From Ilex aquifolium (lineage: Eukaryota; Streptophyta; Magnoliopsida; Aquifoliales; Aquifoliaceae), in the NCBI GenBank assembly GCA_951799425.1, contig OX637394.1, positions 7,637,501 to 7,701,500 on the forward strand: DNA of 64,000 bases, read 5' to 3'. The translations under genes were made by a program, and so were the position numbers. A model generated the notes under the pieces. That model was not told the DNA's origin and did not search any database. It saw nothing but the letters and a program-made list of their open reading frames with translations. Below are positions 11,403-55,599 of this stretch, piece after piece (the first letter of the stretch is position 1; the number at the start of each line of letters is the position of its first letter).

Positions 11403-13513
11403 CCTCTCTAGATGGCACAGAGAGAGAGACACACAATCACCCTCTCTATGTGGGTATGTGAATATAGCATAGAAATCAACGGATCAACTGATATGAGGGA
11501 TTGAACTGAAGAAGAGAAGTCAGAGAGACTAGAGAGAGAAATTAATGGTGACTTTGCTAGCTACCGGTGCATATACATATATATATATATATATGGGAAA
11601 TACTATGTAATTGTCTTTTTTTTCCTTGTTGTTTAAGGTGATAATGATGACCTGTCTTTTGGGTTTCATATTAGCGTAACGACAACCAGGACGAGCCCAA
11701 CAGTCAGTCATAGATCGGTTGATGAAGAATGTGCTTCAATACATCGGATTTTATTGACACTGTGCTTCACACGTACATTGATTTTTATAGTTAGCCTTTG
11801 GACCCTACCGCGATGATTAAAGCCCTCTACAGTGTGAACTGATTAATAAGTCGTAGGTTCAAATTCTCTCCGCCCTATTCTTCACCCCCTAATATAAAAA
11901 AAAATATTATAAATTTGAATACAATATCAGAAATTATTTTTTAATATTATATCTTTATTTTTTTATTTAATAAAAATATAATACATATAATTTTTTATTT
12001 ATTTTTTTATTTTACATGACCATTATCACGATAACAACTACTAAGTGAGATTTACAAATTAAAATTATTTTTGATATTATTTTTCGATTTATTAGTTATG
12101 GTATACATAAAGTGGTCCTACTCATATCCCCGAGATACACATGACATGGTCGTCTTTGTTTATTTATGACAGTGAAACCCCAACTCAGAGCAAATAATAT
12201 TAATAAAGACCTGGGTGGACCTCACCAAAATGAACATGGGGGGTTCAAATCATTTTTAATTAAAGTATTGTTCCATTAGGAGGGGTATGGTGTGGACTGA
12301 TTAATCATGAGGTTACTTAAGAAATATTTATGTAGTTTTAAAGTAAAGTCGTATGGTTTATAGATAAGTCGTAAAGTATGCACGTTTAAACACGATGTAA
12401 CATTTACATTGTCACAAGCCAATAATCGTACTTTCAAATTTCGCTACAGACAACAAACAAATGACCTAATAATTGGATAAGTATATCATCTTGTAATTTA
12501 TGATGTGTCGTATTTTATTAATAGTTTCTTACTGTTTTTTTTTTAAAAAAAAAATATAGATTACCAATCACTTAATCCCATGATGATAAATTTGCTTAAA
12601 AATTAGACATAAAAAAGGGTGCTTGCACATCACATCTAAACTACTTTATAAAATTTATTCTTATTTCTGCATTAAAAACCTTTGATGTCTAGTTGGTACT
12701 TGGTATTTGTTCAAAAAAAATTGGTACTTGGTATGGTACAACTATAAATGTTTACTACCATACCATGAATTTCTAACAACCAACCAACCAACCAATTACT
12801 ATGATACTGTATTTTATGATAGAATTGTCATAGATATCTTTTATGGGTATTTTTATTATTGTCATGAGTATATTTACTACTGTCATGAGTGTTTTTATTA
12901 TATTTGTGGTAATTATTTTTACCACTTTTTTAAGTACAAATTTTTTTTATCACTTTTGTGGGTGATTTACCACATTTATGAGTGATTTATCATATTTGTA
13001 GGTGTTTTTATTACATTTGTGAATATTTTTACCACTGTTGTGATGACTATTTTTATCATTTTTTTGGATACCACAATAATAATAAAATTACCCATAAATA
13101 TAATAAATTTCGGTACCATAGCCAAGTCCGAGAAACTAATATTATTTGAAGAACAATGGAATATTTTTCGGCAAAAAAAAGAAAAGTGATATTTGTTTCA
13201 TCTATATATACAACAAATCAAATATACATGATGAGTACATTGAAGGGATGAGATGGTAATGCAGTGGTGAGGAAATTGGACATGTAGCTTAGTATTAAAA
13301 GCACGTGGTTATTATAAGTAAAGTGAACGCAGAATAAAGGAGGTCAAGAAGCTGTGGTGTTCACAACTGCACATAATAATGTGAACACCGTTTCATTTAT
13401 TTGCTTGGACCCTTCATTTGTTTGTCTCGTCGACTCAGGGAGGGTGAAGTCGCCGGGTACTACCAAGTACCCACTAAATCAACACACCTCCCTCTACCTG
13501 GTAATTGATTGTT
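11403..13513. other. PLC-B upstream spacer
   Basis: No gene found. About 11460-11570 is leader-like and resembles PLC-A upstream DNA. At 11850-11870 GTAGGTTCAAATTCTC resembles a Pol III B box, as in tRNA-derived SINEs, but no convincing A box or tail was found. 13290-13345 resembles 2450-2500. Confidence 0.5.
12838..13065. repeat. Degenerate T-rich short tandem repeat
   Basis: Repeated variants of 'TTTTTATTAC ATTTGTGAGTG ATTTACCAC' with a period of roughly 20-30 bases, heavily diverged. It can be read as a Tyr/Phe-rich frame, which I regard as an artefact of the repeat. Confidence 0.55.
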
Positions 13514-14302
13514 GGAAAAATTTCAGCCACGTCCCTTATAATTTATTATATTTTGAAGGATATTCCCTATATTTTTTGATTAAAGGCCTTAATTAAAATG
13601 TAATTTTAATAAATTATTCATGATATATTTTAAGAAAATTTTTATCCACATCCTCTCTAGATAGACATATCTTCAATAAAACCCCCTCTATTTTATAATT
13701 TTAACATATCTTCAATAAAACCCTATAGTTTTATAATTTGTTTACGTATTAAAATTCAGACCAATTAAAATTCAATTCGACTGATTAAAATTCATTTTTA
13801 ATTGACTTGAATCAAATTTTAATCAACTCGTATTGAATTTTAATCGGCCCGAATTTTGATACGTAAAAAAATATAAATTTTAATACGTAAAAAGTGAATT
13901 TTAATTAACTTAAATCGAATTTTAATTGACAATAATTTTAATAAGTAAAAAAATATAAATTTTAATCGACTCAAATCGAATTTTAATACGTAAAAAAAAA
14001 ATTAATCGACTCAAATTTTAATATGTAGAAAAATGAATTTTAACCAGTTTGAATTTTAATATGTAAAAAAATAAATTTTAATCGACTCGAATTTTATGTA
14101 GACAAATTATTTGGGGTTTATGTAGGGACAATTTTACTATTTTAGATGATTTTTTTTTTTATTAGAAATAGTGGTTTAACGGCAGGGGATGTCAATGATG
14201 ATTAAATATAAATTAAAAGGGTGTCAGTAATATTTTAGATAATAGAGAAGGTGTCTTTAAAGATATAATAAGTTAAAAGAGGTGTCTAACTATAATTTTT
14301 CC
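13514..14302 (-). mobile_element. Non-autonomous MULE-type element, satellite-core family, copy 1
   Basis: The left end GGAAAAATTTCAGCCAC and the right end, reverse complemented, GGAAAAATTATAGTTAGAC form terminal inverted repeats. The flanks TTGATTGTT and TTGACTGTT are a 9-bp target duplication with one mismatch. The core (13740-14100) is an array of diverged 'TTAAAATTCGA..CGATTAAAATT..TTTTTTACGTA' units. It lies in reverse orientation to the copies at 23897 and 32647. No coding capacity. Confidence 0.85.
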
Positions 14303-14902
14303 TTGACTGTTTAATTTCCTCAAGACACACAAAGGTTCTATCACTTTTAACCTGAGTTTTAGTTAATATAAAAACTTAAAAGAAAATGCTATTTGTATTT
14401 AAAATGTTGACATATTTGCTGACTTGATGAATCACAGTTATTGAATTAATATCGGTCCTAATAAATGTTCGAAACCATAACTACGAGTCAGTTCAAAACC
14501 CATAAATGGTATCCACTATATGAAACCATTCAAGGTTATATATTTTCAAACCATGTGTATCCACTATCAAACCAACCAATATACTCAAATTCATAATCTC
14601 AAAGTATCACACCATTGAGGCCATTTCATTCATAGAGCTGTCCCTAATCATTGCTTTTACCCATTCCTATTCTATGGAACCATCATCATACAAACTGGAT
14701 TAGTGCGCTACTTGAGGACAGGACAGAAATCATCATGCATAGGCGACTGCCAAAAATGATCAGAGAGACAAATTAGCCAAGGGTCCTCATTTTTGGATAT
14801 ATAGCATAGCGCATGCAAAATTAGATGATCGATTTTACCTACCCAAAAAAAAAAATAGTCAATTTTCAAAAAATTTATTACACCAAGTTCCATTAAAAAT
14901 AA

Positions 14903-15227
14903 GGGGAAATTGGAAGGGGGTACACCAAATTAGACTTAATTGTAAAAAAGTACACAGAAAAAAATGTTGGGTAATTAAGTCTTTAATTTTGATACTTATT
15001 TGTCTCTAAGTACATTATTTGAATTTTAATGATTTTTTTGTGACATTTTTGTCCTCCATTGATCCATGTGTATTTTCTTTGGAAAGTGGTGCATTAAACA
15101 TCTCCTAGTTTTATGGGAAAGTGGTGCATTAAATTCATGTATCTACTTGTTTGAATATATATACAAATTCAAACAAGTATATATATATATACACACAAAT
15201 GTTTATATATATATACACATATATATA

Positions 15228-15272
<45 letters not shown>

Positions 15273-15437
15273 TGTATATATACGTACATAAATTTGTATA
15301 TATATATATATACACACACGAATTTATATATATATATACACATATACACACACGAATTTATATATATATATATACGTACATAAATTCGTATATAAATATA
15401 TATACACATTTAAATTCGTATATAAATATATATACAC

Positions 15438-15487
<50 letters not shown>

Positions 15488-16305
15488 TCGTGTATATATA
15501 TATATATTCGTACACACATATACATATATATACATATATAAATTCGTATATATATACACACACACACAGATATATATAAGAACTTTAATATTTTATTTTT
15601 GTATATCCTCCCTTGATTCTTGTGAATTTTTTTTGAAACTTTAATATTCTATATTTGTATGTCCTCCCTTGATTCATGCGAATTTTTTTTGGAAAGTGAT
15701 TTTGTTTTCAAATTATATTTAATACACCTTTATTCATGCGATTTTTTTTTTGGAAAGTGATTTTATTTTTAAATTAATTTAATATCCGAAATAGTATAAT
15801 AGTGTAACAATAACAGTGTAACAATAAAAGTGTAACAGTGTACAATAACAGTGTAACAGTTATTGTTACACTATTACACTTTTATTGTTACACTTTGTGC
15901 ATGTGGTAATAAATTCTAAACGGAGATGGACTGTTTTGAATGAAATTATGTGAAAATATATGTTTAAAAAAATGTAATAGTACAATATTTAGTGTATATA
16001 ATTTGTTACACTGTTATTGTTACACTGTTACACTTTTATTGTTACACTGTTACACTTTTGTTGTTACACTGTTATTGTTACACTATTACACTATTTCGGA
16101 TATTAAATTAATTTGAAAATAAAACCACTTTCCAAAAAAAAAAAAACGCATGAATAAAGGTATATTAAATGTAATTTGAAAACAAAATCACTTTCCAAAA
16201 AAAATTCGCATGAATCGAGGGAGGACATACAAATATAGAATATTAAAGTTCCAAAAAAAATTCGCATGAATCAGGGGAGGATATACAAATATAGAATATT
16301 AAAGT

Positions 16306-16341
<36 letters not shown>

Positions 16342-16482
16342 TCAAACAAGTATTTATATATATACGAATTTATATACATATATATATATATATATAAATT
16401 ATATATATGTGTATATATATATAATATACGAATTTTTATATATATAAATTATATATATGTGTATATATATAATATACGAATT

Positions 16483-16523
<41 letters not shown>

Positions 16524-16747
16524 ATTAACAAATACACATGAATCAAGGTGTATTAAAGATAAGAGATTTTGAATTGTTAATACACATGAATCAAGGTGCA
16601 TTAAAGATAAAAAATTTTGAATTAAATGACCCTAAAGGGGGTATTTAGGTCTTTGTATCCATGTAGTGTACTTTCTTCCAAGATGTTTTTTAATGTGTAC
16701 TTTTTGCCAAATAACTCTAATTAGGTGTACCGGCTTCCAAAAACCCC
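14903..16747. mobile_element. 1.85-kb foldback element with 9-bp target duplication
   Basis: The ends GGGGAAATTGGAAGGGGGTA and, reverse complemented, GGGGTTTTTGGAAGCCGGTA are inverted repeats. They are flanked by a perfect 9-bp duplication TAAAAATAA (14894-14902 and 16748-16756). Nearly the whole element is two inverted arms. Each arm contains a (TA)n-rich block, a 'CCTCCCTTGATTCATGCGAA' unit block and a TGTTACACTGTTATTG array; the spacer is near 15900-15990. Arms include a (TG)n run at 16497-16522. The 9-bp duplication and long arms suggest a MULE-type foldback. No coding capacity; the Tyr/Ile-rich frames here are microsatellite artefacts. Confidence 0.85.
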
Positions 16748-16756
16748 TAAAAATAA

Positions 16757-18818
16757 TAAATTGCATGTAATGAATAGTCTAGATTTCGAATATTGGGTTA
16801 TAATCATCCTATCTTGTTATGAGAATGAGGTTGCCTAATCCCTCGCGGCTATGAACTGTTCGTATGAAAGAGCTCTAAAATTCATCTCTCCCAATTCCCT
16901 AGTATAGGAAAGCATTGAGGATAACTAAAAGAGTATTAATCCAGGAGGCTGTCATGTTTCTTGAAGGATAACTAAAGTGATTCAATGTAATGATGGTATA
17001 AATATGGATGTTATCGGGGATAAATGCAGTGAGCTTAAACTAAAATAGTAGTAGAAAATAAATTAAACAAGAAGTGAAGTGGTTCACCAGCTAAAAAGCT
17101 TGACTAATCCAATGTGATGGAGTTTCTTACTCTAAGGGTTTTTATTGCTCTATGAGGAAAAAAACGGTTACAATTCTCTTGAGAGTGTATTTGTACATTT
17201 TTTGGGCAATACAATGGTCTGCCTGTTTATGCACTAGGATAATGTGGTTCTCATATAATGATGGTGGAGTTCCCCAATCTGTTAGGATATTGGAGGGAAT
17301 GTTGGGATGTCAGAGACTATATTTCCTAGGTATGACGTGACATTTTAGAAGTAGATGATTGAGCACTAATAATCTTATCCTTAGGTGAGGTCCGGACTTG
17401 AGAGGCACTCTTTGTCCCTCTTCTTCTGATTGGCCCAAGTTATTTTAGTTTACGAAACGGCTCCTTGACCCCAACTTGTGCCCAGCCTGAATTGACCTGT
17501 CTTTCTCTGTTGTCGGGGGGAAGTCGTCTTTGAAGATGACTTTATTTTTGGTATCATCAAAAACCATTTGTTTAGTTGACGCAGATGTTGATCTCAAAGG
17601 CTAGTGACATCCAACATCCTCCAGCAAACATAAAACTTGGGAACATATACCACCATTGGAAAGCTAAGCACCAGTGAATATTGTTTTGATAAGAAGGCAC
17701 TAGTCATCATGGTCGTCTCTCAAATTTGTCAAAGTGGAAGGAAAATGATGGGGAGATTCGGCATGGTGCTTAACCCATCATGTAGAGAAACATTGCTAAT
17801 GAATTATTGAAACCCACCAGAAATTAAGGTTGTTTGGGTCGAGGATTTTGGTATTTGGCACAAATCATTCCTCCTGATCGAATATTTTGAGTGTGTGTGT
17901 GTGAAACTGGAGGGAATGAAAGAATCCTTTAAAGCATCTCATAGGAGCTAGTTTTTTCGTAATCTTCCCCAATTCTTTGGCTCTGTTTGTTTAGCGAGTA
18001 AGTGCAGGAAAGTGAGGAAAAAGAAAAAAAAAAAAAAAAATTTCATGTGTTTTATTAGCTTGAAAATATGGTTTCTCGAGAAAGTTTTTTTTCCCACATC
18101 AGCAAACAATTGCTTTCATTTCTCGCAAATTATGCGGGAATTTTTTTTTTTTTTCACGGGAAACTTATCTTGTTTCTTGCTTTGTCCACTTCGCATGTTA
18201 TCCATTTCAGTGAGAGAAATGAGAAAAATTTAGATATTTTGCTCATAACAAAATAAAAAGAATATGATATTTTGGTAACAAATGTTACTTTTTTTTTTTT
18301 AATTAATTGAACTAGAGTTGTAAATGGATATTATTCATGTTATGTTTAAATAGTTTTGTGTTAAAATTTGTCTAATACTTAAACCAATTTTTTCTAGCAA
18401 ACTTTTCATTCTAATCAAACGCATATAACTATATAAGAAAATAATTTTTTTTTATATTTTTTTTTCACTTCACTTTCTACCGTTTGCCCTTTCTATCATC
18501 AATATTTTTCTAACCAACCGAACCTTTATAACAACTGATTCCCTCCTTTGCTCCTCCTACTTACATAATAATACACTTTCCATTCCTCCTATTTTAACTT
18601 TATGTTCCCCTGCTAGTATTCCTCACACATGCAAAAGATTACTGCCGTCCTTCCCTCCTCCTTCCTTTCCTAGTCATCCAGAAAATTTGGCGGAGTTATC
18701 ACTGTTTTTTCTATTACTCTCTCCCAACTGATGTTGGTGTCCTTTTCCATGCCTATGCTAGTCCACATGTGCACCGTTAAGTGTCAGCATCCAAGCAGTT
18801 CCCATTGGTAGTCGCAAA
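16757..18818. other. Gene-poor spacer
   Basis: No gene or bordered element recognised. 17000-17580 is less AT-rich and has a feel of old LTR DNA (AAGTGGTTCACCAGC near 17081 recalls the Tat LTR core), but no termini were found. Confidence 0.4.
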
Positions 18819-19673
18819 GGTTTTTAAAATCCGGATCTTATGTCCGTCCGATGGGATGGCCAATGGATTGAGATTATAGGATCGAATCGAGAATCATAAA
18901 ATTTTACCAATTAAAAAAATGAGATAAAAAACATATGTAATAATACAAAATGTTTAAAATCAATAGTTAAACAAATATATATGCAAATAGAAATGTTATG
19001 ACAAATATAAAACTTAGAAATATGATTGAAATTTGACAAATTACAATTTGAGCATTGATGAGAGTTAAAAATCAAAGGTGGACTATTGATCTTGTGGGAT
19101 TTTGCAGGGAGGAATTTGAAAATTGAATTTTTTTTTTTTATCTTCAGATGTAGAGGATAGACATGCAATTTGAAAGGCTGTTGAATAATAATTTTGATTG
19201 TTTTACATTCAAACGAAAAAAGCAAAAAAAAAAAAGTGGAGAACTATAATGACTATGATCACTTGTTGAGAGAGAACATCAAACCTATTGTTGCTTTCAA
19301 CGATAGAGATGAATGAATAAATAGACTTTTTGTGAACGAAATAAATTTTATGTAACTTTTCTCATTTGTTGAAATTCCCCAATAGACTGACAATTATATG
19401 AGATATTCGCATTCGGATTAAGTCTTTAACAGTTTAACACGATAAATACGATTTGGGTTTGCTCATTAACTAAATGCTCTTAACAAACAAACCCAATAAC
19501 TTAGATCAGTAAAGCTGCAATTCCGATCGAGATCCTATAATCTTATGAGATTCGAATCATGATACATTTAAATTTTTTGAATTTGAAATTCTACAATAGA
19601 TGCGAATTGATTTAATTGTAGCAAATTGTGGGATAATAAAGATCCTATGATTTGAATTGGAATTTTGATAACC
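18819..19673. mobile_element. Candidate inverted-repeat element
   Basis: The left end GGTTTTTAAAATCCGGATC and the right region (reverse complement GGTTATCAAAATTCCAATTC) match imperfectly, and 'GATCCTATAATCTTATGAGA' type segments recur in inverted order. Flanking GTCGCAAA and GTCACAAA could be an 8-bp duplication but are offset from the right terminus, so the borders are uncertain. Confidence 0.4.
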
Positions 19674-20880
19674 ATGATTGTCACAAACTTCATGTGCTCG
19701 TCTATCCCTGATAACTCTGCAGTCTTCAGACCATGAAAAACCCTTCGGGTAAATTGGAGATTTCTTTAAACAAAAGTACCATAATTACCAACAGAGAGAG
19801 CAAGTTTTTGAACGAAATCTGTTTAGAATCCTTCCCTCAGAAATGCACTCAGAATGCATGAATTTGTGCATCACATTTCCTTCAAAATAGAATTAGTAGG
19901 TCCTTCGCTTTCTCCAGATGGTAACAATACAACAGTCACTTCGTCCCAACCCACAACCCATCACATTTGACAATCATGGGAATGAAAAGAAGAAAAGACA
20001 GATGGGGAAAGACAATCATAGAATGCTTCCAACCGAGACCAAAAGTTGTACCAGTTGGTACAGGGCCACACTTACTTTACAAAAGGGTTGAGCCTCCCCC
20101 AATATAAAACCTGGCGCTCTCTCTCTCTCTCTCTCTCTCTGTGCGCGCGCGCGCGCACACACACACACACACAAACTTCCAACTGTCTGGTTACGTGGTA
20201 ATTGTCCTCAAATACGTAAAATCAGGAAACCTCCAAAGTCCAAGCCTCACTTGGAGGTTCCCATGAATGTGTTAATGACCTGATTCAAAATCCACTACGA
20301 GATGCTCATGAACGTACAAAAAAAGCTTGATTTACAAGTGTCAATAGGGTGTTGTCAAACAGGATCATCGACCTTGTTGGGGTACAAACTACTCCTAGCA
20401 CTCAAACAATGTTAAGTCTCTTAACAAAAAAAATTCTAATCAGGGTCAATCTCTGACTAAATACCCACTAGATTGAGGCGTAAGTAGTAAACTGGATATA
20501 TATGCACACACAATTTGGGGTCAAAGTAAATGCTAAAACCAACTCACTCTGATCAATTAAGATGCAAGAAAACATGTTACCCATTAAACCAAGCAAAGAC
20601 ATTTCATACTTTTCCAGAGCGAAAAATGATTCTCCTAGATTTAAAATATCATGATCAAACACTTCCCCAATAAAACCATCCTCAGTTTTATATAACAGCC
20701 AAAAAAATTTGTCATATGGAGATCTCTGGTCTATTAGTCTTTCACATAAAATATGATAAAGGCAGCAAATTCCAAAGCACTGAAGTAACCAGTTCACAAT
20801 GAATTTCTAGTATTCAATCGAATTTGGGGATAGCAGGTTTACCTCCAGTTTTCAGTATGACCTGACCAGCTAGAAATCAC
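19674..20880. other. Spacer downstream of PDX1
   Basis: No gene supported. A 109-codon open frame on the minus strand (20468-20797) has no recognisable motif and no splice partners, and I do not call it. Confidence 0.5.
20117..20174. repeat. Compound (CT)n(GC)n(AC)n microsatellite
   Basis: Successive runs of CT, then GTGCGCGCGCGC, then ACACAC. The central alternating purine-pyrimidine block is potential Z-DNA. Confidence 0.92.
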
Positions 20881-21142
20881 GGATTTAGATCCCTTCCATT
20901 ACCCCTCTTCTCTTCAATTCCCTCCATTCCCTCCAATCCAGTAATACATGGGTGACATGTAAAATTTAAATTTTAATGGACAAAATGTTTCCTCATTCAT
21001 TTTGTTGTTGGTGGAGTGTTAACCATTGGTAAGGAATTTTTTCGCATGAAAAAAAACTTGCCATTGAAATTCAAAATTTTACACACGTCACACTGTATTG
21101 GAGATAATTGAAGGGAAGGGATAATAGAGGGGATCTAAATCC
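20881..21142. mobile_element. 262-bp MULE-type MITE
   Basis: The inverted ends GGATTTAGATCCC and GGGGATCTAAATCC extend imperfectly for about 90 bases each. They are flanked by a perfect 9-bp direct repeat AGAAATCAC (20872-20880 and 21143-21151). No coding capacity. Confidence 0.88.
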
Positions 21143-21414
21143 AGAAATCACATGGCCACAAACTCTACCACAACAAACCTACTGTGGAAGAATCTTCATA
21201 TAGATACACTGAAGTCCGGGTCATCAAGAGCTAATGAAACTTGAGATAAACATGGAAGAATTGCCAACTAATATAAAGGATAAACTTTAGACAAATCACC
21301 ATTAAAGCCATAACATATACATACAATTAAAAGGACAGGACAACATATTACCCTTCAAATCAGTATCAAAGTTAAACATGGCAACACTAATATTCAAATT
21401 CTAGCAGACTGTAC

Positions 21415-21976
21415 TGCTGATGCACAAAACAGGCTTATGCACAATTAACAGCAATAAAACAATCAATAGCAAGAGACAAATATTGGGTTAACACACAAAT
21501 GTATAGTGGTTTGGTCAGGGGACCTATTCCACTTTCGAAGGTGGCAACGGTGGCCGATGACTTTTATTAATAAAGTAAGGTGAGAGAGAGAATCAAGGTG
21601 AGCTCTGGGAGAGGTATGGTAAGTATGAGAGAGATAGTTTTATGTGGGATGTAGAGGTGTGTCCCTCTCATGGAGAGGACTTACAATTTATATGCACAGA
21701 GCCTTGGGTGAGGCAGCCTTGGTAAGGCAGTGACGTGATGGGTTAGGTACTAGCTTATAGAAGAGGATAACTATAACTAGGATAGGTACAATTAGAGATA
21801 GTCTCGATCTTGGAGAGTGGCTATCCTGACGATTGTTCCCCACGTGTACTAATCTTCCTGAACTCCTTAAACTTTAGACCGGATCGAATTCACGAGTTGG
21901 ATTTGACCTGCCTTTTAGTTAATTTGGACTTACTTGATTAATTAGGTCTAGACTCGGCTGAATTTGGGCCTCATCA
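21415..21976 (-). mobile_element. Solo LTR, Tat-family, copy 1
   Basis: Starts TGCTGATGCACAAAAC and ends GGGCCTCATCA (TG...CA), flanked by TGTAC and TGCAC, a 5-bp target duplication with one mismatch. It shares internal landmarks (TATAGTGGTTTGGTC, then CCTATTCCACTTTCGAAGG) with the LTRs at 46807, 48929 and 56330. Orientation follows the 56330 element. It lies about 440 bases past the stop codon of PDX1. Confidence 0.82.
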
Positions 21977-22411
21977 TGCACCAACATAAACAGCTAAAGT
22001 AAAAGCCAAATAACATTCACACAAACCAAAAAAGGGTAAAACAGCAGCTTCAAATTGACAGAGGACAAGTTAATAATTTAAGCACTCAACAATTCATATC
22101 ACTTTCATACTACAAAATTCTACCTTGTTATCTTCAAACCCATCAACCTTCCCATGACCACATATGCAATTGTTGTGAACATACCAAGATAACAACCATT
22201 ACTACAATAAGCAAAAAAAAGGAAACCCAATATCTTCCATAAAAACATTTAACATAGCAATTCAACATGTTTGTGACTAAAAGTAATGATATCGATTGAA
22301 ACCTGAAGTAAGACGATTGACAAAACAAAATCATAATACTGACGAATATAAATCGTCCAAGAGGTTCAATGGGACCTCACCTACAAGCATGAGAAAGCAA
22401 CGAACCCTTCC

Positions 22412-23344
22412 TTACTCTGACCTATTCGCAAACCTTTCAACCTTATCATCATTCAGGTTAATCCCAACCATAGCCTCGCCCAAGCCACAGCTCACATCCG
22501 CCAGAACCTCCGGATCACTATAATGCGTAACGGCCTGCACAATCGCCCGAGCCCTCCTCGCCGGATCACCGCTCTTAAAAACCCCAGACCCAACAAAGAC
22601 ACCATCGCATCCGAGCTGCATCATTAAAGCAGCATCCGCTGGAGTCGCCACGCCACCGGCGGCGAAGTGCACCACCGGAAGCCTCCCCAGTTGCTTCGTC
22701 TGCATAACCAAATCATAGGGTGCCTGAATTTTCTTTGCAAAAGTAAACACCTCATCGTCGTCCATGTTTCGGAGAACACGAATGTCCCCCATCACAGACC
22801 TCACGTGACGGACGGCCTCGATAATGTTTCCGGTGCCCGCCTCGCCTTTGGTGCGAATCATGGCCGCACCTTCACGAATACGTCTGAGAGCTTCTCCGAG
22901 GTTTCGGCAGCCACATACAAAGGGAATGCGGAAATTATGTTTGTTGATGTGGTTATCTTCGTCGGCCAGAGTGAGGACTTCGGACTCGTCGACGTAATCA
23001 ATTCCGATGGCTTCGAGGATTTGGGCCTCCACGAAATGGCCGATCCGGGCCTTCGCCATGACGGGTATGGTGACTGCCTGCTTGATTTCCTTAATGAGTT
23101 GTGGGTCCGACATGCGAGCCACGCCGCCTTGAGCTCGGATGTCGGCGGGGACGCGTTCCAGGGCCATGACGGCGCACGCGCCGGCTTCTTCGGCGATGCG
23201 TGCCTGCTCGGCGTTAACGACGTCCATTATGACGCCGCCTCGCAGCATCTGGGCCAGGCCTACCTTCACAGAGAAAGGGGATTTCTTTGTGGTCTCGGTG
23301 ATTGCGCCGTTTCCGTAAACTGTTACCACACCGGTTCCGGCCAT
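22412..23344 (-). CDS. PDX1: Pyridoxal 5'-phosphate synthase subunit PDX1
   Basis: A single uninterrupted 310-codon frame covers the whole family length (Arabidopsis PDX1 proteins are about 309 aa). PDX1 builds pyridoxal 5'-phosphate (vitamin B6) from ribose 5-phosphate, glyceraldehyde 3-phosphate and ammonia delivered by the glutaminase PDX2, and assembles as a dodecamer. The (beta/alpha)8 barrel landmarks are present: Asp41 (VIMDVV), Lys98 in MAKARIGHF (forms the Schiff base with the pentose), Lys166 in [10 protein letters not shown] (second lysine) and the phosphate-binding [13 protein letters not shown] and VFVGSGVF segments. The intronless structure is usual for plant PDX1 genes. The start is the first ATG of the frame and matches [13 protein letters not shown] of the family. 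No lesions; predicted functional. No PDX2 gene is seen in this window. Confidence 0.97.
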
Positions 23345-23440
23345 TTTGAGAAAGAAAAGAACCAGAGAGAGAGAGACAAAGACAGAGAGAGATTATGGGA
23401 AACCCTAATGTAAATTGGGGAAAGGGGGCGAAGATTTATA
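23345..23440 (-). promoter_or_regulatory. PDX1 leader and TATA box
   Basis: On the minus strand TATAAATC (23440-23433) lies about 90 bases before the ATG, followed by a GA-rich leader (GAGAGAGAG runs at 23363-23392). Spacing fits a TATA box with a short 5'UTR; transcript evidence is lacking. Confidence 0.6.
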
Positions 23441-23571
23441 GGAGAAGGGAGAGGATTGAGTGAAGGGGTGGAGAACAATGTGCGTCAAGTGGCTGGGAAT
23501 TCTGCGTCTGTGGCTCTTGGAAATATTTCTAATTTTGCAGTATAAATGTATATCATGTCAAATAAATTAGG

Positions 23572-23892
23572 CAGAATTATACTTTGTACCTCAAAAAATT
23601 ATAAGATTCGCATTTTATACTTTTAAAATTAAATTTCTTATATTATACTCTCAATATAACAAAAATATTACAATGTGACATTTTTATTAACTTTTTATTA
23701 GTTTTTTTCGTTAGTATCAATGAGTTAATTTTTAACGAAAAAAATAACGAAATCTAATAAAAGAGTTACATTTCAACATTTTTGATATATTAAAGGTGTA
23801 ATATTAGAAATTTAATATTTAAGAGTATAAAATAAAAATTTTAAAATTTTTTAAGGTATAAAATGCGACAATAATTAAGAAGTATAATTAAA
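23572..23892. mobile_element. Small inverted-repeat element (MITE-like)
   Basis: The left arm AATTATACTTTGTACCTC.. with GCATTTTATAC and the right arm (reverse complement AATTATACTTCTTAATTATT.. with GCATTTTATAC) match over about 100 bases each. A clear target duplication was not found. It sits directly against the MULE-type element at 23897. Confidence 0.6.
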
Positions 23893-23896
23893 TAAA

Positions 23897-24758
23897 GGAA
23901 AATTTTTAGCCACATTTATTTTAATTTATTATATCTTTTAAGACATCCCCTCTATTATCTAAAATATCACTGACACCCTTTCTAATTTTTATTTAAATAT
24001 TACTGACAATCCCCGTCGTTAAACTACTATTTCTAACAAAAAAAAATATATAAAATACTAAAATTACCTCTATATAAATTTCAAACAATCTTTTTATATA
24101 AAATTTGAGTCGATTAAAGTTTATTTTTTTAACATATTAAAATTTGAGCTGATTAAAACATATTAAAGTATGAACCGATTAAAATTCGATTAGAGTTGAT
24201 TAAATTTTATTTTTTACGTATTAAAATTCGAGCCTATTAAAATTATTTCTTTACATATTAAAATTTGAGTCGATTTGAGCTTAACTTGAACTGTTAGCGC
24301 CGATTAAAATTCGATTCGAGTCAATTAAAATTTATATTTTTTATTTATTAAAATTCGTGTCAATTAAAATTCGATTCAAGTTAATTAATTTTTTTTTTTT
24401 TACGTATTAAAATTTGAATCGATTAAAATTTATATTTTTTTACATATCAAAATACAAGCATATTAAAATTCAATGCCAATTGATTAAAATTTAATTTGAG
24501 TCGATTAAAATCAAATTTTAATCGACCCGAAATTTAATATGTAAAAAAATTCATAAAATAAAGGGGGTCTAATTGAATATATGTTTATCTAGAGAGAGTG
24601 TGAATGGATATATTCTTAAAATATATCATTAGCAATTCAATAAAATTGTATTCTCGTTAAGGCCTTTAGTCTGACAGAGGAGTCAGTAAAGATTCAAAAA
24701 ATAGAGAGCCTGTAATTGAATATATGATAAACTAAAAGCATGTGATTGAAATTTTTCC
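23897..24758 (+). mobile_element. Non-autonomous MULE-type element, satellite-core family, copy 2
   Basis: The ends GGAAAATTTTTAGCCACA and, reverse complemented, GGAAAAATTTCAATCACA are inverted. They are flanked by a perfect 9-bp duplication TTAAATAAA (23888-23896 and 24759-24767). The core (24100-24540) is an array of 'TTAAAATTCGA(T/G)TCGATTAAAATT' variants separated by T-rich ACGTATTAAAA spacers. Same order of segments as copies at 13514 (inverted) and 32647. Confidence 0.88.
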
Positions 24759-24767
24759 TTAAATAAA

Positions 24768-25427
24768 TTTATAAAATTTCGCTGAAAAAAAAAAACATTT
24801 CATCATAGAGATTCAAGCATAGTGCGAACACAAGGGGTTTGGCACTTTCCAATTGTTAAAAAAAAAATTATAAAATAATTAGAGTATCTTTCAAAAATTT
24901 TTTTTTTTTTGCATGGTGAGTTTTAAGGTTATTAAATTTTAAATTATTTTAAAATTTAAAATATTTATTTAAATTCAAGATAAAGATTTGATAGAGAATA
25001 GAGCGAAACCCGAACAGAGGGCGTTAGAGGGTGGCGGCGGGAGAGTCGTGGTGAGCCATGAAAAAGTGTCGCCATCGTCTTCTTGTTACATCGTACTGCT
25101 TGTCTGCTAATGACAGAAAAATAATTATTTTTTTGAAAAGAGAGAGAAAGATAATAAATATAAATATAATAATTTATAAGGTGACCAAAATGAATCGTGG
25201 CATTTGGTAAGACCATTGTCCATTGACTAATCCTTTACAAATTACACTTTATACCCTTTTTATGTGTAACTGCGTTCAAGGTATGAAATGTAACTCAAGT
25301 GTAATATAAGAAAACTCAAATACGTAATCTGATATTGTTGAACTCTCTATTTGTTGGAGTTAAAAGAGTTAACAGTGTTGTTTTTTCAATAATAAAATAT
25401 AAGAAAGAGATCAATAGAATAATTTTA
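24768..25427. other. Spacer
   Basis: AT-rich, no gene supported. An 83-codon minus frame at 24965-25216 has no recognisable motif. Confidence 0.5.
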
Positions 25428-26893
25428 AATGTTAAGAAAATAAAATTATAGGGGGATAAAATATAATTATCCTAAAAAAGCTGAAGTGGTGGGCAAGGAA
25501 ATGAATGAAAGCAAAATCGAAGTCCTCCACTCCTTCCCGATGCCTTCATTCTTCCACAAAAAAAAAACATTAAATTAATCCACATGAAAAATGCACTTTC
25601 TCAGTTAAACAGTGTTTATTTTTTAAAAAATAAAATAAAAAAATTACTAATCTGTATTACTTTTTTCCACAAAAATTCATTGAGTACTATTATTTTTATT
25701 TTATATCAATGAAGTTCTATTTTTGATATTTTATGTTAATAAAGTCCTATAGTCCATAAATATTATATTTTGTTTTAATTTTATCATTCTCTTGAAAAAT
25801 ATTGAGGTTGTAACAATAGTCTTCTTTTATTCATAAATATCCCAACATCTTGCTTTTTAATTTATGTGTTACCTGCTTCCTAGTTTTATAAAATATCTAA
25901 TTATTAATTATTTTTAGAATTGTCATTATAAGATGCAACAAACGGATTTGGACCTTATGTATTCTCAATGGATAAGAGTTTCTTGATGAAAACTCTAGTG
26001 TTTTGTGTTTTTAGAATTACAATTGAAGTGAACAAAAATTGAGTATTCATGTCTCTGGTTTTTCTTTTTTTATGAAAGTTTCAAATATAGAAAATAATTC
26101 ATAACGAAAATGCAAAAATAGTTTCAACAAAAACTAAACATTATTTCTAGAAAAAAATAAGTAAATTAACTCATATAAAAAAGATATGACAACTAATTCA
26201 TTCTAAAAAAAATATAAAATTGAGCTACATAACAATTGATACACAACAATAATGTATTCTTTAACTCTGACAATTTTTCGAAGAGGGAAAAGAGAGACCA
26301 AAAAGGCAACAAAATCTACTAAGAGAACTAATATATTATTAATCTCCCACTAAAGTCATAAGTTAATCTGCATTACATACATATTACCTTAGTCGATGTA
26401 AGAATTAGGAGTTATAGTCAGAAGAGAACCTGTCACCGTAGTGACTAAGGGAATAAATGATAATTAAAAAGTCTACACTGTGTTGTCAGTGTTGTGATAC
26501 AAGTAAAGAATAGAAGAGTTTTGGTAATTAAAAGTTAAGGACAAAATTGAAATATAATAGAATTAGGATTTTATTGATATAAAATATAAAAAATAGGACT
26601 TCATTAATATAAAAACAAAATAATAGGATTTAATGAATTTTTGAAGAAAAAAATAATACTTATTGATAATTTTTTCAACAAAATATAAAGATGGGGTAAG
26701 TAATATAATTTTAAATGTTAAGAAGATAAAATAGTGTCAGATAAAATTATAGGAGATATAAAAGATAATTATCCTAAAAAAGTTGAAGTGGTGGGCAAGG
26801 AAAGGAAGGAAAGCAAAATCAAAGTTCTCCACTCCTTCCTGATTTCTTCATTCTTCCACACAAAAAACACTAAATTAATCTACATGAAAAATG
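25428..26893. repeat. Diverged direct repeats (about 170 bp) flanking an inverted-repeat element
   Basis: 25428-25598 and 26714-26893 are direct copies sharing ATAATTATCCTAAAAAAG, GAAGTGGTGGGCAAGGAAA and CTTCATTCTTCCACA. The DNA between them is mostly the inverted-repeat element at 25655-26658. The repeats are too long to be target duplications; they could be remnants of LTRs or of a segmental duplication. Confidence 0.7.
25655..26658. mobile_element. About 1-kb inverted-repeat element
   Basis: The left end TATTACTTTTTTCCACAAAA and the right end (reverse complement TATTATTTTTTTCTTCAAAA) continue as imperfect inverted repeats of roughly 110 bases (TTCATT.., ATATCAATGAAGT.. against ATATTAATGAAGTCC). 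No target duplication identified and no coding frame. Confidence 0.6.
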
Positions 26894-26899
26894 CAAAAT

Positions 26900-27450
26900 C
26901 GTTGTCCGTTAATAGAGAGAGAGAGAGAGAGATCAGACACTATTGTCCAGCTCCTGTTTGCCACATGACAGCCCTTTCTTCTCCATCTTCTACCCCCAAA
27001 CCAATCTCCTCATTTCACCATCCACTTGACTATATAATTAGACGACAAAACAAGAGATTGGGACCCAATCACTCTCAACTTTTATTTCACTTCTCCATCT
27101 TCCACCCCCAAACAAGGATAGGAATTCTTTGTTTTTATTTTTTATTTTTGTGTCTTTGTTTGGGGTTGGGGTAGGATTTTTTTTTTTTTTTGGGGGGGGG
27201 GGCTTAATCTTAAGCACTGCCATTATACATTAGTTTTCTTAGTAAAGGGAAGATGAGACTTGAACTCCTGTGAATTTATGTAGGAATCCATATACTCTGT
27301 TGACTGTATTTCTTGTGAATCACTTCGTTTTCAAGAACAAACTGATACAGAAACTACAGATCATTTTTCTTAATAACCAGCCAGGGCACACACGTTACTT
27401 TGACTCATACTGTGTTTTCAGCTATCCTATGATTTTGCCCCTTTTCTTTT
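26900..27450. other. Region just downstream of the GT90 gene
   Basis: Contains a GAGAGA run (26917-26931), a duplicated CTTCTCCATCTTC(T/C)ACCCCC segment (26976 and 27092) and a T13G10-type homopolymer junction at 27178-27201. No gene supported; the first part may be 3'UTR of the minus-strand gene. Confidence 0.45.
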
Positions 27451-30400
27451 TTATCCAACTCTTCTTGTACTTGCTATATCTCGAGGCTGAAGTGTGCATG
27501 GAGGTGCTGGTGAAGGGAGGGAAGTTGACTTTTTCAGGAATTGCCTTTGCTTTTCATCCGCAAAGCAGAGCAGGGAATCCACACATATTTCTTGGGCAGA
27601 TGAAGGTAGAACAGGTGTGAAGTCCAGCAGCTTTGAATACTCTGTTATGAGATGATACATGTAATCATAAACACGCCGCATGCTCAAGTTTTCCATGAAA
27701 TCCTGTGCTCCTCTTCCTATCATCTCAGCCTGATCAGCCAAATTTAGAAAAAAGATAAGTTCCACTAACTATTTGGAAGAGATTATTTAGGCTGCAACTA
27801 AACCTACTCCCCCATGGCAGCAGGGAAAAAAGGTTGTTGTCTACAAGTGAAAAAGGTGGCTAGAGTTAAAAAAAGAAAAGAAAAGAGATAAGTGGCTAGA
27901 GCAAATAAAAACCTGCATTGTCACACCCTTGCACGGGCAAAGCATTTGAAATAGCTGGGGGTAGTCCCGAACAACAACATTAGCTTCTTGAGAATATATC
28001 CTAAGGTTGTTCTGTTTTCATGTCCTCATAAAGAAAGCTCTCTCTCTCTCTCTCTCTCTATACTAGTGTAATAGCTCAGTTGAGGCTGCGTTGTTAATTT
28101 AATATTACATTTATTTATTTTTCCTTTTTTGGCTGTCTTGCAGGGTGGAGACTGGGGGGAGGTTGCGGCAAGCATCTGGCGGTCTTTTCATGCTTGTCCA
28201 AGCAAAGCCCAGAAGCCATCACCATACCATTCACTAAATTGTCATATCAATTTAAGTCAAGTAGCAAACTGAATAGCAAGACCAAACATGCCATAAGAAA
28301 AGAGTGAAACTGTACCTCGGATGGATGGACATTACCCCAGTCAACAGCAAACTTTATAGATCTGCATAAATCATCAGGAGGGATAGGCCAATAATTTTTC
28401 TTGGGAATGAGACCACGACTAAAGAAGTCTTCATATTGTGGAGATATTATAAGAGGAACCGAACCACATGACAGAATATATTTCAAGCTGACGGACCAGG
28501 CATATCCTTCAGCATAGATCTTGTACCTGCATAGTTAAAACCAACAAATCAACTAAAAAATCAAGTGCATTCTCCACTCAAGGTCAAGGAAGATAGATCG
28601 AATAACGCATGATTACCTAGTTTAACAAGTACCACGACTCAAGCATAACACACAAAAAGCATAGTTGAACACCAAGTCACACATACAATTATGAAATCTT
28701 TATCATGATAAAAAAATTAATTTAATTTTGCTCTCATAATTTACAACAAATAGACCGCCAAACCTACAATAAATAGCATGCAGTTTAGTCCCCATTAATG
28801 GGGGTCTGGGAGGAATATATTGGATGTAGAATTAACATTTAACAATTTTTGCACTAAGTGATCAACAAAAATGTCTGATTAGAATAATTAGGGTTCGAAT
28901 TGGGATCGCCAATTTACATACTCATGCAACATGAAAATGTGAAGTATGGAAACAATGATAACCTTATTTGAAACTTTAAGGTGGGGTTGAAAAAGTAAAA
29001 TCAGTTAGCAGATTAAAATGGTAAATTGAAAGCTTCTCAAATCAATGCTTTGCATTTTTGGTTCTACTGTTTCTATCTGAAACCAAATCAATAAAAGGGA
29101 ACAAAAAAATTCAGTTTATACACCAAACACCATCCAAATTGGTTTGAACAAGATCTGGACATCTTCATAAACCATGATGTTATGCTAGTTCTCAGTATGG
29201 CGACGTCACACTCAAAAGAGTGACCTACCGATGATTGCACTGCTTTGATAGTTTGGACTGCTTGAATCCACCTTTTGCTGCTTCACCCCAATCCTGAAAT
29301 TCATCAACAAAAAAATTGAAATTTAGTGGTCCAGAAACCGTTATATTGACATTAATTTTTGAAGAAGTCATCCAAACAATGCTTGAATTTCAAGTCATTC
29401 ACCTGACGCATAATTTGAGCTCTCCACTGCCTAGTGTCATTGCATTGCAGCAACTTTGTACGAATAGGAGAATTAACATCGGGGTTTCCTTTCCAGTATG
29501 CAAGAGGCCACTTCTTCAGCCAACTTTGAGCTTGTGAACCGCGTTTAATATTTTTAAATTCTTCATCCCAGGGTCCTATGTTTATCTCTGACCTGTAAGA
29601 ATCATTTATAATGCTGCTGTTGGGTTTAAAATAAATTACACTCTGGCATTTATAGCCTAAATGAACCAGACCTTATGCAGCTCCTACTGGCAGTTGCAAA
29701 TCACAGTAATAATTAACAAATCCAGTCATTCATTCTACAAAGTAAAAAACATTTGATAGCCACCTTGAACATTCTTACAGAAGCAAGTGCAAGATGGACA
29801 CCAAACCTTAACACAAAAAAATAGGCAGTATTCAGACATGGGCTAGTGGGACAGTTGCAGCTGGGTAAGTAGACCCAATCGTTAATGTCATTCAACTTGT
29901 CTGATGAAATAAATCAAAACAACAATCCTGCCTACTGCTTCTCATCCTATTTCCCATGAAATTATCCACCGTAGCCTTTCTTTTCAGTTTTACCTTATTC
30001 TTGTCATATTTGGATTCTAAGATACCTCGATTGTCATTATGCTTTCTATACCAATGTTTACATGAGGTTTATAGCAAGTTTATGCCAACTAATATGTTTG
30101 TGGGGGTATGAATGGTACCGTACATAATATCACAAGTAAAAAATTTCATCACACTAAGAAAATTGGTTTAACGTTAAAAAAACATTCATGAAAGCCCCTG
30201 TTACACGCAATAAAGAACAAATGACAAAATATAAATCCCTAGATTGGAAGTGTCTTCATCTCTCTTCACAGAATGTTTGAAGTATGCATAAACTTTATAC
30301 AAACAGACAATAATAATTCTAACTAAACTGTGAACTTCTTTCCAAAAACACTATCTAAAAGAGAAAAAAAAGAATAAAGAAAGAATAACATAATCAAAAC

Positions 30401-32221
30401 TCCTCAAAGCTCACTTGGAACAGAGTGTGCAGCTCAACTGCCTTGTAACCTTGATTTGATCAACCCTAAAGGTGATTTTTCTAGCCTCTTTCCTTTATGC
30501 AATGCCTTCACACACTATAGGCATTTAAAAAAGCTCCAAATGAAGTTTTGGGTAATGAAAAGAAGATTGGAATTGAAGTATCTGTTACGTTTGGGTCCCC
30601 TACCAAAACAGGTAGCAGTGATGTTGTCAAAGTGCAAGTGAAAATTGGTTGATTAATTTAGCCATTGACTTATAAATCGTAAGTTCCAGAGTACTTCATC
30701 TCAAGATGTACGTAGAACAACCATTACATGACAATGATACAAAATATTTCAAAAACCATCATACCCAATATCAAAAAATAAACTTTAGGGAGAATTACAC
30801 CGAGACCCCTTATAGTTTGTCACTCAATCACTAGACCCTTTGACATTTAAAATATTACACACAGATCCCCTAAAGTTTGTATGCATGTACTCCTGTTGTC
30901 AATGTCCGTTAGTATATCCATTAATAAATTATATTCAGACCCCCTAAAATTTATAGGCATGTAATACTTAGACTCCTCAAATTTAAAATGTTATACTTAG
31001 ACAAAAAATACTCCAATCAAAGATAGAATATCAAATATTTTAAAATTTACAACCAAAATTCATATCTATTATGACATTTATTGAAATAAAATCAAAAATA
31101 AAAATCTAAATTTTTTCTTAAAATATTATAATTAATATAAATTATACTATCTATTGGAATTTAATTTGGTCGTTTAAACGATCAAATTAAACTACCAAAT
31201 TATCCCAATTAAAGTTAGAAGATATTGTACCGATTATAGTTTGGCGTCTTGTTTGATTTTTTAGTTTTATTTCAATAGATAGTATAATTGCATACTAATT
31301 ATGATTTTTAAGAAAAAAATAATTTTTTATTTTTAATTTTATTTTAATAAATGACATAATAGAACATGAATTTAGTTGTAAAATTTATATTCTATTATGA
31401 ATGATTTAGACCCCTTGTGTGTAATATTTTAAATATTAGAAGGTTTAAGTAATTAAATAACAAATATTAAAGGGTCTGATTATAAACCTCCCTAAACTTT
31501 ATTCAAATACAATACACAAATTGACAACAGCTACAAGAAAGCGGGTTTATTATTCTTACCAACCCCAGAAAGACCAGTCAGGAAACGGGATATCAAAATG
31601 CTCCGGCGTGGTGCAATACCGAAACAGAGGCAAAGGCATCGCCGCATGCTCGGTCCGATTAATGCTTGGCTTGTCCATGCAATCAAACATCAAATCAACA
31701 TCTGGAACCCTACCAGGGTACCTCCTAAGAAGCTGCAGCAATCCCCAAATGGTAAACATAGCCCTACTCTGCACACAAGCATAGTAAAAATCCACATAGA
31801 GTCTTCCCCCAACAATCACAACCCGAAAAGCCGCGAATTCCTTGGCTTCCATTAAATGGGTCAACGATATCTTAGTCTTGGACCAAGGCTTGAGGTCATG
31901 ATGTATAGATCTGAAGAATTCGGGACAATTCTCCGCTTGATTGGCCAATGCAGATTGGTTTTTGTAAGGTACATTGTCGCTAGCACTACGTCCACAGCTG
32001 AGATATGAACATCGGATGATTTTGGAAGCTCTGGCGTACTTGGTCTCCTCGTTGAAGGTCTTGGTTGGGAATGGGTGCCATGGTGTGGCCTCTAAGTTGT
32101 GACCTGCGATGGTTTTCGTCTGATAAACGAAGTCGTCCACCTGTTCGATCAATTGTCACAATGAAATAAACTATCAGAGGCTTATCAACATCAACACACT
32201 TACACACACAAACATAAATCT

Positions 32222-32292
<71 letters not shown>

Positions 32293-32388
32293 CTCGAAAA
32301 GGAGGAGGAGGGCGAGGGAGAAGAAAGCCAAGAGGAGGACCAAGCGAGGGACGAAAAAGGGGGTTCTTGAAAGTACCCCCATACCCAT
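27451..32388 (-). CDS. Glycosyltransferase family 90 (rumi/DUF821-like) type II membrane protein
   Basis: Exons: 32388-32293, 32140-31560, 29592-29403, 29293-29229, 28526-28316, 27729-27451. All GT/AG, phases consistent, 473 aa. Residues 11-31 (FFVPRLVLLLAFFSLALLLL) form a signal anchor, placing the catalytic part in the endomembrane lumen, probably Golgi. The ATG was chosen because only this frame gives the anchor and splices in phase. Family landmarks are VDLMFDCMDKP, PWDEEFKNIKRG, AYWKGNPDV, NHRYKIYAEGYAWSVSLKY and LIISPQYEDFFSRGL. Family members are protein O-glucosyl or O-xylosyl transferases in animals; plant members are linked to wall glycans, but the sugar and acceptor cannot be read from sequence. 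Intron 2 carries a foldback element (30788-31492), and intron 1 begins with a long CT tract. No coding lesion seen. Confidence 0.93.
30788..31492. mobile_element. 705-bp foldback (MULE-type) in GT90 intron 2
   Basis: The termini GGGAGAATTACACCGAGACC and, reverse complemented, GGGAGGTTTATAATCAGACC begin two arms of about 340 bases that fold nearly end to end; the centre is the near-palindrome GGTCGTTTAAACGATC. A perfect 9-bp duplication TAAACTTTA flanks it (30779-30787 and 31493-31501). No coding content. Confidence 0.88.
32225..32288. repeat. Long GA microsatellite at start of GT90 intron 1
   Basis: About 32 GA units on the plus strand. On the sense strand the intron opens GTACC and then becomes an uninterrupted CT run within a few bases of the donor. 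Confidence 0.95.
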
Positions 32389-32646
32389 TTTTGATAGAGT
32401 TTGATGAGGTTGATAGCAATGGTGGTGACGATGGGCTCCATTTTGTCGCCGATTAACACTTTCTACCTCATCCTTTTCGTCGTTTCTCTTTCAGGGAAGG
32501 AGTTATGGTTATGGTGCACTGAACTCACCACGTGGAATACTACCACTTCCGTGTCCGTCTCCTACTCTTCGTAACGTCTGCCCGAATATGCAAAGGTACC
32601 GCACTCCTCTCTATCCCGTGCGCTTCAATGGATCCAATTTTAATTT

Positions 32647-33596
32647 GGAAAAATTTTAGTGATACCATTTCTAATTTATTATATCTTTAAGCATATCCTT
32701 TTTATTATCAAAAATATTACTAACATCTCTTTTAGTTTATATTTAAACAGCACTAATACCTCTGTCATTAAACCACAATTTCTAACAAAAAAATTCATGT
32801 AAAATACAAAAAATATCCCTACATAAACCTCAAACAATCTTTCTATACAAAATTCGATTAAAATTCAAATTGATTAAAATTTATTTTCCTATTAAAATTC
32901 AAATGGGTTAAAATTCGTTTTTCTACATATTAAAATTTTAGTTGATAAAAATTCGATTCGAGCTGATTAAATTTTAATTTTTTTACATATTAAAATTTGA
33001 GTCGATTTGAGCTATACCTGAATTGTTAGCGTCGATTAAAATTCGCTTCGAGTCAATTAAAATTTATATTTTTTTTACTTATTAAAATTTGTGCCAATTA
33101 AAATTCGATTCAAGTTGATTAAAATTTATTTTTTACATATTAAAAATTGGATCGATTAAAATTTATATTTTTTTATGTATCAAAATTAGGGCCGATTAAA
33201 ATTCAATACGAGTTGATTAAAATTTGATTCAAACTGATTTTTAATCGACTCGAATAGAATTTTAATCGGCTCAAATTTTAATACGTAAAAAAATATAATT
33301 TTTAATCGACTTGAATTTTAATATGTAAAAAATAAATTTTAATTAATTCGAATCAAATTTTAATTGGTCTAAATTTAATACATAAAAAAATTTAGAAAAT
33401 AGAGGGGATCTCATTGAAAATATGTCTATCTAAAGGGGGTGTGCATGAAGTTTTTGTTCAAATATATCATGAGTAATTTAGTAAAATTGTATTTTAATTA
33501 ACACCTTTAATCTAACAGGAGTTCAATGAAGATTAAAAAAATAGAAGGAATGTCCTTGAAGTGATAGTAAACAAGAGGTGTGACTGAAATTTTCTC
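32647..33596 (+). mobile_element. Non-autonomous MULE-type element, satellite-core family, copy 3
   Basis: The ends GGAAAAATTTTAGTGATACC and, reverse complemented, GAGAAAATTTCAGTCACACC are inverted, with a perfect 9-bp duplication TTTTAATTT (32638-32646 and 33597-33605). The core (32850-33390) holds the same diverged TTAAAATTCGA-type array as copies at 13514 and 23897. It lies about 260 bases upstream of the GT90 start codon. Confidence 0.88.
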
Positions 33597-33605
33597 TTTT
33601 AATTT

Positions 33606-55560: not shown

Positions 55561-55599
55561 AAGCCACAAACAGAGCTCTTTATTTTGTCTTTCAGGTTG

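Follow-up and report, generated by a model that had tools for sequence, protein, structure and literature searches.

Three probable non-autonomous Mutator-like elements sharing an ordered array of short repeats in Ilex aquifolium

A stretch of 64,000 nucleotides from Ilex aquifolium (assembly GCA_951799425.1, contig OX637394.1, positions 7,637,501 to 7,701,500 of the forward strand), termed here the window and the source of all results given below, contains three related elements, which measure 789, 862 and 950 bp and have about 22% G+C each. Each copy is bounded by inverted GGAAAAWTT-type termini and by its own distinct 9-bp duplication, and carries a core of short tandem repeats. The three copies are most probably old, non-autonomous plant transposons of the Mutator-like (MULE) type, partly of foldback structure, that were moved in trans. 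Their parts are given below in window coordinates; the limits of the cores are alignment columns chosen by hand and positioned via arm profiles, and the limits of units in the array were also set by hand.

13505..13513, target-site duplication of copy 1, TTGATTGTT, with the partner TTGACTGTT at 14303-14311 (1 mismatch)
13514..14302, minus strand, copy 1 (789 bp), in the opposite orientation to copies 2 and 3; identified by its ends, a 9-bp duplication with 1 mismatch and co-linear alignment
13699..14098, minus strand, repeat core of copy 1, built of A, B and C units, with slot C2 absent and the inverted part short
23888..23896, target-site duplication of copy 2, TTAAATAAA, with the same 9 bp at 24759-24767 (perfect)
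23897..24758, plus strand, copy 2, 862 bp; identified by its ends, 9-bp duplication and co-linear alignment
24096..24548, plus strand, repeat core of copy 2, with a short inverted half of two units
32638..32646, target-site duplication of copy 3, TTTTAATTT, with the same 9 bp at 33597-33605 (perfect)
32647..33596, plus strand, copy 3, 950 bp, the longest of the three, with the right end AATTTTCTC
32845..33390, plus strand, repeat core of copy 3
33035..33236, plus strand, ten co-linear units A1 B1 C1 A2 B2 C2 B3 C3 A3 A4 in copy 3
33239..33364, minus strand, inverted duplicate of the copy 3 array units at 33097-33222, with 111 of 127 aligned columns identical

A sequence-only reading of this DNA had proposed two perfect 9-bp duplications and one with a single mismatch, and all three were confirmed at the positions claimed for them. 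When the flanks are read at 7, 8, 10, 11 or 12 bp, 2 to 10 mismatches appear, and the probability that two random 9-mers from the local flanks would match equally well is 0.0013, 0.0011 and 0.0023 for the three copies. The same reading had the inverted GGAAAAWTT ends shared by all copies, which holds for five ends out of six; the exception is at the right of copy 3, where 2 mismatches occur. On the plus strand of the window GGAAAAWTT occurs three times, each time with a partner end (at most 2 mismatches, within 2 kb) and a 9-bp duplication (at most 1 mismatch), and on the minus strand twice, where it forms the right end of copy 1 and of copy 2. A set of 40 dinucleotide-shuffled windows gave no qualifying pair at 9 bp. 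Other duplication lengths gave no pair (8 or 11 bp), one pair that uses another right end (7 bp) or two pairs that are shifted readings of the same sites (10 bp). Moreover, a profile made from the left arm only matches the opposite end, in inverted orientation, in all three copies, over 60, 87 and 72 bp (E of 8e-7, 1.4e-5 and 5.7e-4). A weak match in the profile searches was also noted at 48702-48594 (E 0.56). A second scan of the window, for at least 15 of 20 matching end bases together with a perfect duplication, misses all three copies. Its two matches at 9 bp are a small element at 20881-21142 and a further site with a two-letter duplication; at 8 and 10 bp it returned hundreds, and those listed all fall within TA-rich sequence at 15.3-16.4 kb.

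It was further claimed that the copies have a common order from flank to core, and this is borne out by alignment: all three are co-linear end to end, copy 1 being reversed. In ungapped columns the arms agree at 76-80% (left) and 75-81% (right) and the core at 83-86%, and the similarity to a full-length profile ends at the element termini in each of the three copies.

The cores had been described as arrays of diverged units. Such arrays are indeed present, and their order is higher than was claimed, since three unit types follow one another in fixed slots and the array then changes orientation. Units start with ATTAAAATT (with some variants), termed below the unit head, and differ in their tails: unit A (21 bp) has a tail like CGATTCGAGTCG, unit B (21-25 bp) a tail like TATATTTTTTTACGT and unit C (16 bp) a tail like CGAGTCG. 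Together A, B and C span about 61 bp, and periods of 58, 59 and 61 bp are found in the three cores, among several others, by Tandem Repeats Finder. About 20-30 diverged motif units are counted per element if one mismatch is allowed and matches in the arms are included. The best-preserved stretch has the order A1 B1 C1 A2 B2 C2 B3 C3 A3 A4, common to the copies, so that all ten slots of copy 3 are matched in copy 2 and nine of the ten in copy 1, which is without C2. Units from the same slot of different elements have an identity of 0.865 (28 pairs), while units of the same type from another slot reach 0.781 between elements (68 pairs) and 0.771 within an element (34 pairs); none of 2000 slot shuffles gave so large a difference. 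Because same-slot units are more alike across elements than other-slot units, the array, judging by its sequence, was in place before these copies spread and has since escaped homogenisation. Gaps in the pairwise alignments often lie near multiples of units (16, 20, 38, 40, 46, 57 and 60 bp; others are 11, 12, 19, 25 and 35 bp), and between copies whole units or parts of units are present or absent, which is read as loss in a comparison that has no outgroup to give the direction.

Beyond slot A4 the orientation of the array is reversed in all three copies. The reversed part of copy 3 duplicates, in inverted form, the units that come before it, and the inverted half is much shorter in copies 1 and 2 than in copy 3. 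For copy 3 the self-inverted alignment scores 375, whereas 100 shuffles reach 70 at most, and the predicted fold has a z of -11 (20 shuffles).

As to the class of the elements, duplications of 8-11 bp are given for MULEs (PMC6446971). All three copies have 9 bp and other lengths misfit, and no open reading frame (ORF) of at least 90 amino acids overlaps any of the three elements. Together with the inverted ends, the 9-bp duplication and the absence of such an ORF fit what would be expected of a non-autonomous Mutator-like element. The elements also share the features of a miniature inverted-repeat transposable element (MITE), as they are gene-less and short, with inverted ends and a target duplication. 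Lengths of 789-950 bp exceed the usual MITE size. From the earlier name of 'MULE-like MITE' there remains a single transposon family with fixed ends, 9-bp duplications, a shared repeat core and no ORF of that size; since its members are long for a MITE, 'short non-autonomous MULE' is the safer label.

Several observations weigh against the assignment to partly foldback MULEs moved in trans. It is built on three copies from a single window, and the MULE transposase domain was found in none of the 44 ORFs that were scanned (36 + 8) among the 92 window ORFs of at least 90 amino acids. Foldback elements have inverted arms that are long and repetitive inside and let the element fold on itself, and here fold-back is strong in copy 3 only: the fold of copy 1 is weak (z -3.0, matched by 0 of 20 shuffles; self-inverted score 137 vs 86), and that of copy 2 is not significant (z -1.6, matched by 2 of 20 shuffles; 81 vs 70). 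Terminal inverted repeats of MULEs are commonly long, and the inverted arms here are weakly alike: in local alignments over 220 bp they score 35, 35 and 29, which is not clearly above 200 shuffles, with their means of 22-23 and maxima of 39, 35 and 34.

From what is known of the family, the following mechanism may be proposed. A MULE transposase encoded elsewhere in the genome would excise the element at its ends and, by a staggered cut of 9 bp, insert it at AT-rich sites. In the ancestral element the array would have arisen by tandem duplication, followed by inverted duplication, and would afterwards have been carried along, while the copies diverged and their unit number came to differ. Most likely the array would either serve the element, by adding binding sites in its interior, a role proposed for other MULE and foldback elements with repeats, or be neutral.

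Other origins of the three copies can be weighed against this proposal. All three sit within 20 kb, as might be expected of diverged local duplicates, i.e., inverted-repeat DNA multiplied by segmental duplication without transposition. This is scarcely credible, and local duplication was rejected, because the copies have different 9-bp duplications at the same ends and the full-length similarity stops at the termini in all of them. It is quite improbable that the elements belong to the hAT, P or Merlin superfamily and not to Mutator. These superfamilies make duplications of 8-9 bp, and no transposase was found in the scanned window ORFs to decide the matter. Foldback structure arises in several superfamilies (PMC3169594), which would leave room for such an assignment, yet the duplication is of 9 bp, not 8, in each of the three copies, and a neighbouring element at 30788-31492, whose ends are weakly related, likewise has a 9-bp duplication. 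A further proposal, made in the sequence-only reading, was that a transposon of this kind is a plausible seed for tandem repeats; as an active satellite seed its core would expand into longer arrays elsewhere. A short-repeat array was indeed carried to new places in three insertions with different duplications, and a foldback element in that role is known, Tetris of Drosophila virilis (PMC4079207). On the other hand, the units are inherited slot for slot and are not homogenised, and the exact long core words TTAAAATTCGA and GATTAAAATT have all their window-wide occurrences inside the elements (7 of 7 and 18 of 18, respectively); for comparison, ATTAAAATT lies inside them in 49 of 55 cases (both strands, element limits padded by up to 20 bp, the elements making up 4% of the window). 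A tandem-repeat scan of 13000-34000 gave no array of these units outside the elements, and long homogenised tandem arrays of these units, as would characterise satellite DNA, were seen neither there nor among the exact core words of the window. Since inheritance is slot-wise and arrays outside the elements are lacking, the satellite-seed proposal is unsupported in the window, and a core acting as an active seed is very improbable.

The constancy of the unit heads raises the question of whether the array has a function. It is possible, though doubtful, that the ATTAAAATT head is held constant by a candidate binding protein, either a transposase or a VANC-type anti-silencing protein, in each case supplied in trans. 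Among A/T columns, 3 of 80 vary in the heads; the arms have 55 of 276 variable (Fisher p 0.0002) and the tails 8 of 45 (Fisher p 0.017), a count made on the nine slots present in all three copies, C2 being left out, and with B1 and B2, of unequal length, omitted from the tails. The A units show no variation between elements in their first ten positions. In a pairwise count over the eight slots of equal length, 6 of 390 A/T cells differ in heads and 51 of 293 in tails; this count omits B1, whose heads are identical in the three copies, and B2, where one copy has two differing head bases. Over the elements as a whole, A/T sites differ at 15.9% in the left arm, 15.3% in the right arm and 16.5% in the core outside the motif, compared with 3.7% in the motif, a figure favoured by the requirement of an exact motif in one copy. 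Once base class is allowed for, it is in the unit heads alone that the core changes more slowly than the arms. An initial estimate of motif constraint (3.4% vs 17%) was discarded as unfair, an exact motif having been demanded of the reference copy; under the same condition a word from the B tail gave 5.1% (7/136). CpG dinucleotides point the same way, as they are at 3.8-4.2 times the expected number in the core, at 0-0.48 in the arms and at 0.64 in the window, and core CpG sites show transitions in 32 of 150 cases vs 86 of 277 for other C/G, i.e., they change no faster and, if anything, slower. These counts give no sign of the CpG decay that past methylation would leave; the CpG sites of the arms are too few for a decay test (4/12 and 4/8), and an alternative count of changed and kept sites gives 29/18 for CG and 9/5 for GC. 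A precedent is provided by VANC of the Arabidopsis VANDAL elements, which acts on motifs of 8-9 bases in noncoding tandem repeats (PMC5735166).

Against a binding array it has to be considered that the motif was picked post hoc, because the units share it, and that the counts come from three copies with unit limits set by hand. In a matched test 7 of 261 bases differ in the motif, 7 of 63 in the arms and 2 of 72 in other A/T words of the core, which are thus as constant as the motif. From this last set any word containing TAAAAT or ATTTTA had been removed, and the control is not clean, as four of its eight words still run into heads. The high CpG of the core is largely due to TCGA in the A and C units. 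The published VANC motifs YAGTATTAY and AGTTGTMC are unmatched inside the three elements, and their 3 and 5 matches in the window are about the chance number. No VANC-like gene was seen in general ORF scans, none of which was a search aimed at VANC. Short gene-conversion tracts among units would also yield the same pattern; neutral inheritance or such tracts are the alternative to a binding array. Taken together, the lower variation of unit heads relative to arms may be regarded as a hint of a protein-binding array. The stronger form of this idea is rather unlikely, namely that the core is a constrained array of about 20 predicted binding sites of nine bases, through which a gene-less MULE with inverted repeats would recruit a factor in trans, either a transposase or a VANC-like anti-silencing protein, and a MITE would stay open and mobile. 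If true, the CpG-rich units within CpG-poor arms would be a visible trace of factor recruitment.

Repeat-bearing MULEs and foldback elements are already known, and the elements described here form, as far as seen, a new family of that kind. Among the closest known systems is Tetris (PMC4079207), which is gene-less, bears tandem repeats in long inverted arms and has duplications of 8-10 bp, and whose autonomous partner was not found; it was put in Mutator because of the duplication size and the general link of foldback elements with Mutator. Its units of about 220 bp have grown into kilobase satellite-like arrays, whereas units here are of 16-25 bp with no outside array in the window. Muta1 and related MULEs of Aedes aegypti with long terminal inverted repeats (PMC5225508) share with the present family duplications of 8-9 bp, tandem repeats just inside the ends (in 10 of 12 families) and many non-autonomous derivatives of variable repeat number. 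The repeats of Muta elements are of 9-15 bp and lie within the terminal inverted repeat, whereas the core described here lies between the arms and has three unit types; also, the transposition of Muta1 was shown in yeast. The Tm1 Mutator/Foldback elements of root-knot nematodes (PMC3169594) have 9-bp duplications, composite inverted repeats with tandem motifs of about 14 bp, MITE-like members and arms made unequal by differing repeat numbers; they differ in motif, in host and in having a linked transposase.

Among plants, the VANDAL elements of Arabidopsis (PMC5735166, PMC10398659) have motifs of 8-9 bases in noncoding tandem repeats that contract and expand. They carry VANC genes and the motifs YAGTATTAY or AGTTGTMC, unlike the gene-less elements with ATTAAAATT described here. 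The MuTAnT elements of Medicago truncatula (PMC4486113) are short MULE derivatives with foldback structure; they target TA microsatellites, which the three copies do not. A MITE tied to an internal tandem array is also seen in miDNA4 and Xstir, the tandem-repeat MITEs of Xenopus (PMC12628747), although miDNA4 belongs to Tc1/mariner and is not an element with a 9-bp duplication. The Rehavkus group combines a minisatellite with 9-bp duplications (table in PMC6446971), and a MULE transposase is ascribed to FARE, a foldback element of Arabidopsis, in a citation by PMC3169594. No plant MULE with the present core was among the titles and abstract openings of the literature matches listed, a search that left repeat libraries outside and gives no proof of novelty, and a literature search for ATTAAAATT as a word gave no match. 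Scans of viral and prokaryote contigs with exact patterns gave 0 matches, which is uninformative on plants.

The family provides a small and clean case for the question of why several Mutator-like elements bear short tandem motifs. As slots are traceable in each copy, passive decay, gene conversion and selection of binding sites would become separable once the copies in the genome are counted. It also argues against taking every repeat-bearing transposon as a satellite seed.

The window contains other gene-less elements of similar style, at 15579-16309, 30788-31492 and 20881-21142. The element at 30788-31492 (705 bp) has ends of the type GGGAG..., a perfect 9-bp duplication TAAACTTTA and no exact ATTAAAATT. 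These ends resemble those of the three copies weakly and to a modest degree. The left one beats 500 of 500 shuffles when compared with copies 1 and 3 and 498 of 500 with copy 2, and the right one beats 500, 499 and 498 of 500 shuffles for copies 1, 2 and 3; the left-arm profile gives E of 0.07 and 0.95 for the two ends. If this kinship is real, related ends occur there without the array, and ends and array are therefore separable. The 262-bp element at 20881-21142 has inverted ends matching at 18 of 20 positions (GGATTTAGATCCC...) and a perfect 9-bp duplication, AGAAATCAC. At 15579-16309 (limits by eye) a separate, younger-looking foldback lies inside a long TA microsatellite, a position that recalls the TA-targeting MULEs of the MuTAnT type. 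Its inverted arms of about 290 bp are identical at 279 of 295 aligned bases and contain tandem repeats of 56 bp, about 60 bp and 22 bp, and its ends, AGAACTTTAAT and GAGAACTTTAAT, are flanked on both sides by ATATATATA.

The ORFs of the window contain domains of SOR/SNZ of the PDX1 type, GT90, PI-PLC, PfkB and a malectin-like domain, and ORFs of Copia and Gypsy type are also present. Tandem repeats of other kinds were noted as well. At 63403-63593 there is a TCGA-rich tandem repeat of about 80 bp (by eye), which has a weak match to the core profile (E of about 0.02) and looks different in sequence. An ORF at 59921-60670, adjoining the Gypsy-type ORFs, has a tandem repeat at the protein level, with EAEFSTTHGRVAKLEAELAETRERAML present four times. 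Within the 519-amino-acid ORF stretch at 57590-59149 lies a GC-rich repeat (57915-58430) that is readable in several frames (e.g. CLVARTVRACCLGARTAWARCL), and two tracts at 34215-34970 and 55170-55634, which look alike, have His/Pro/Thr-rich open frames in several frames.

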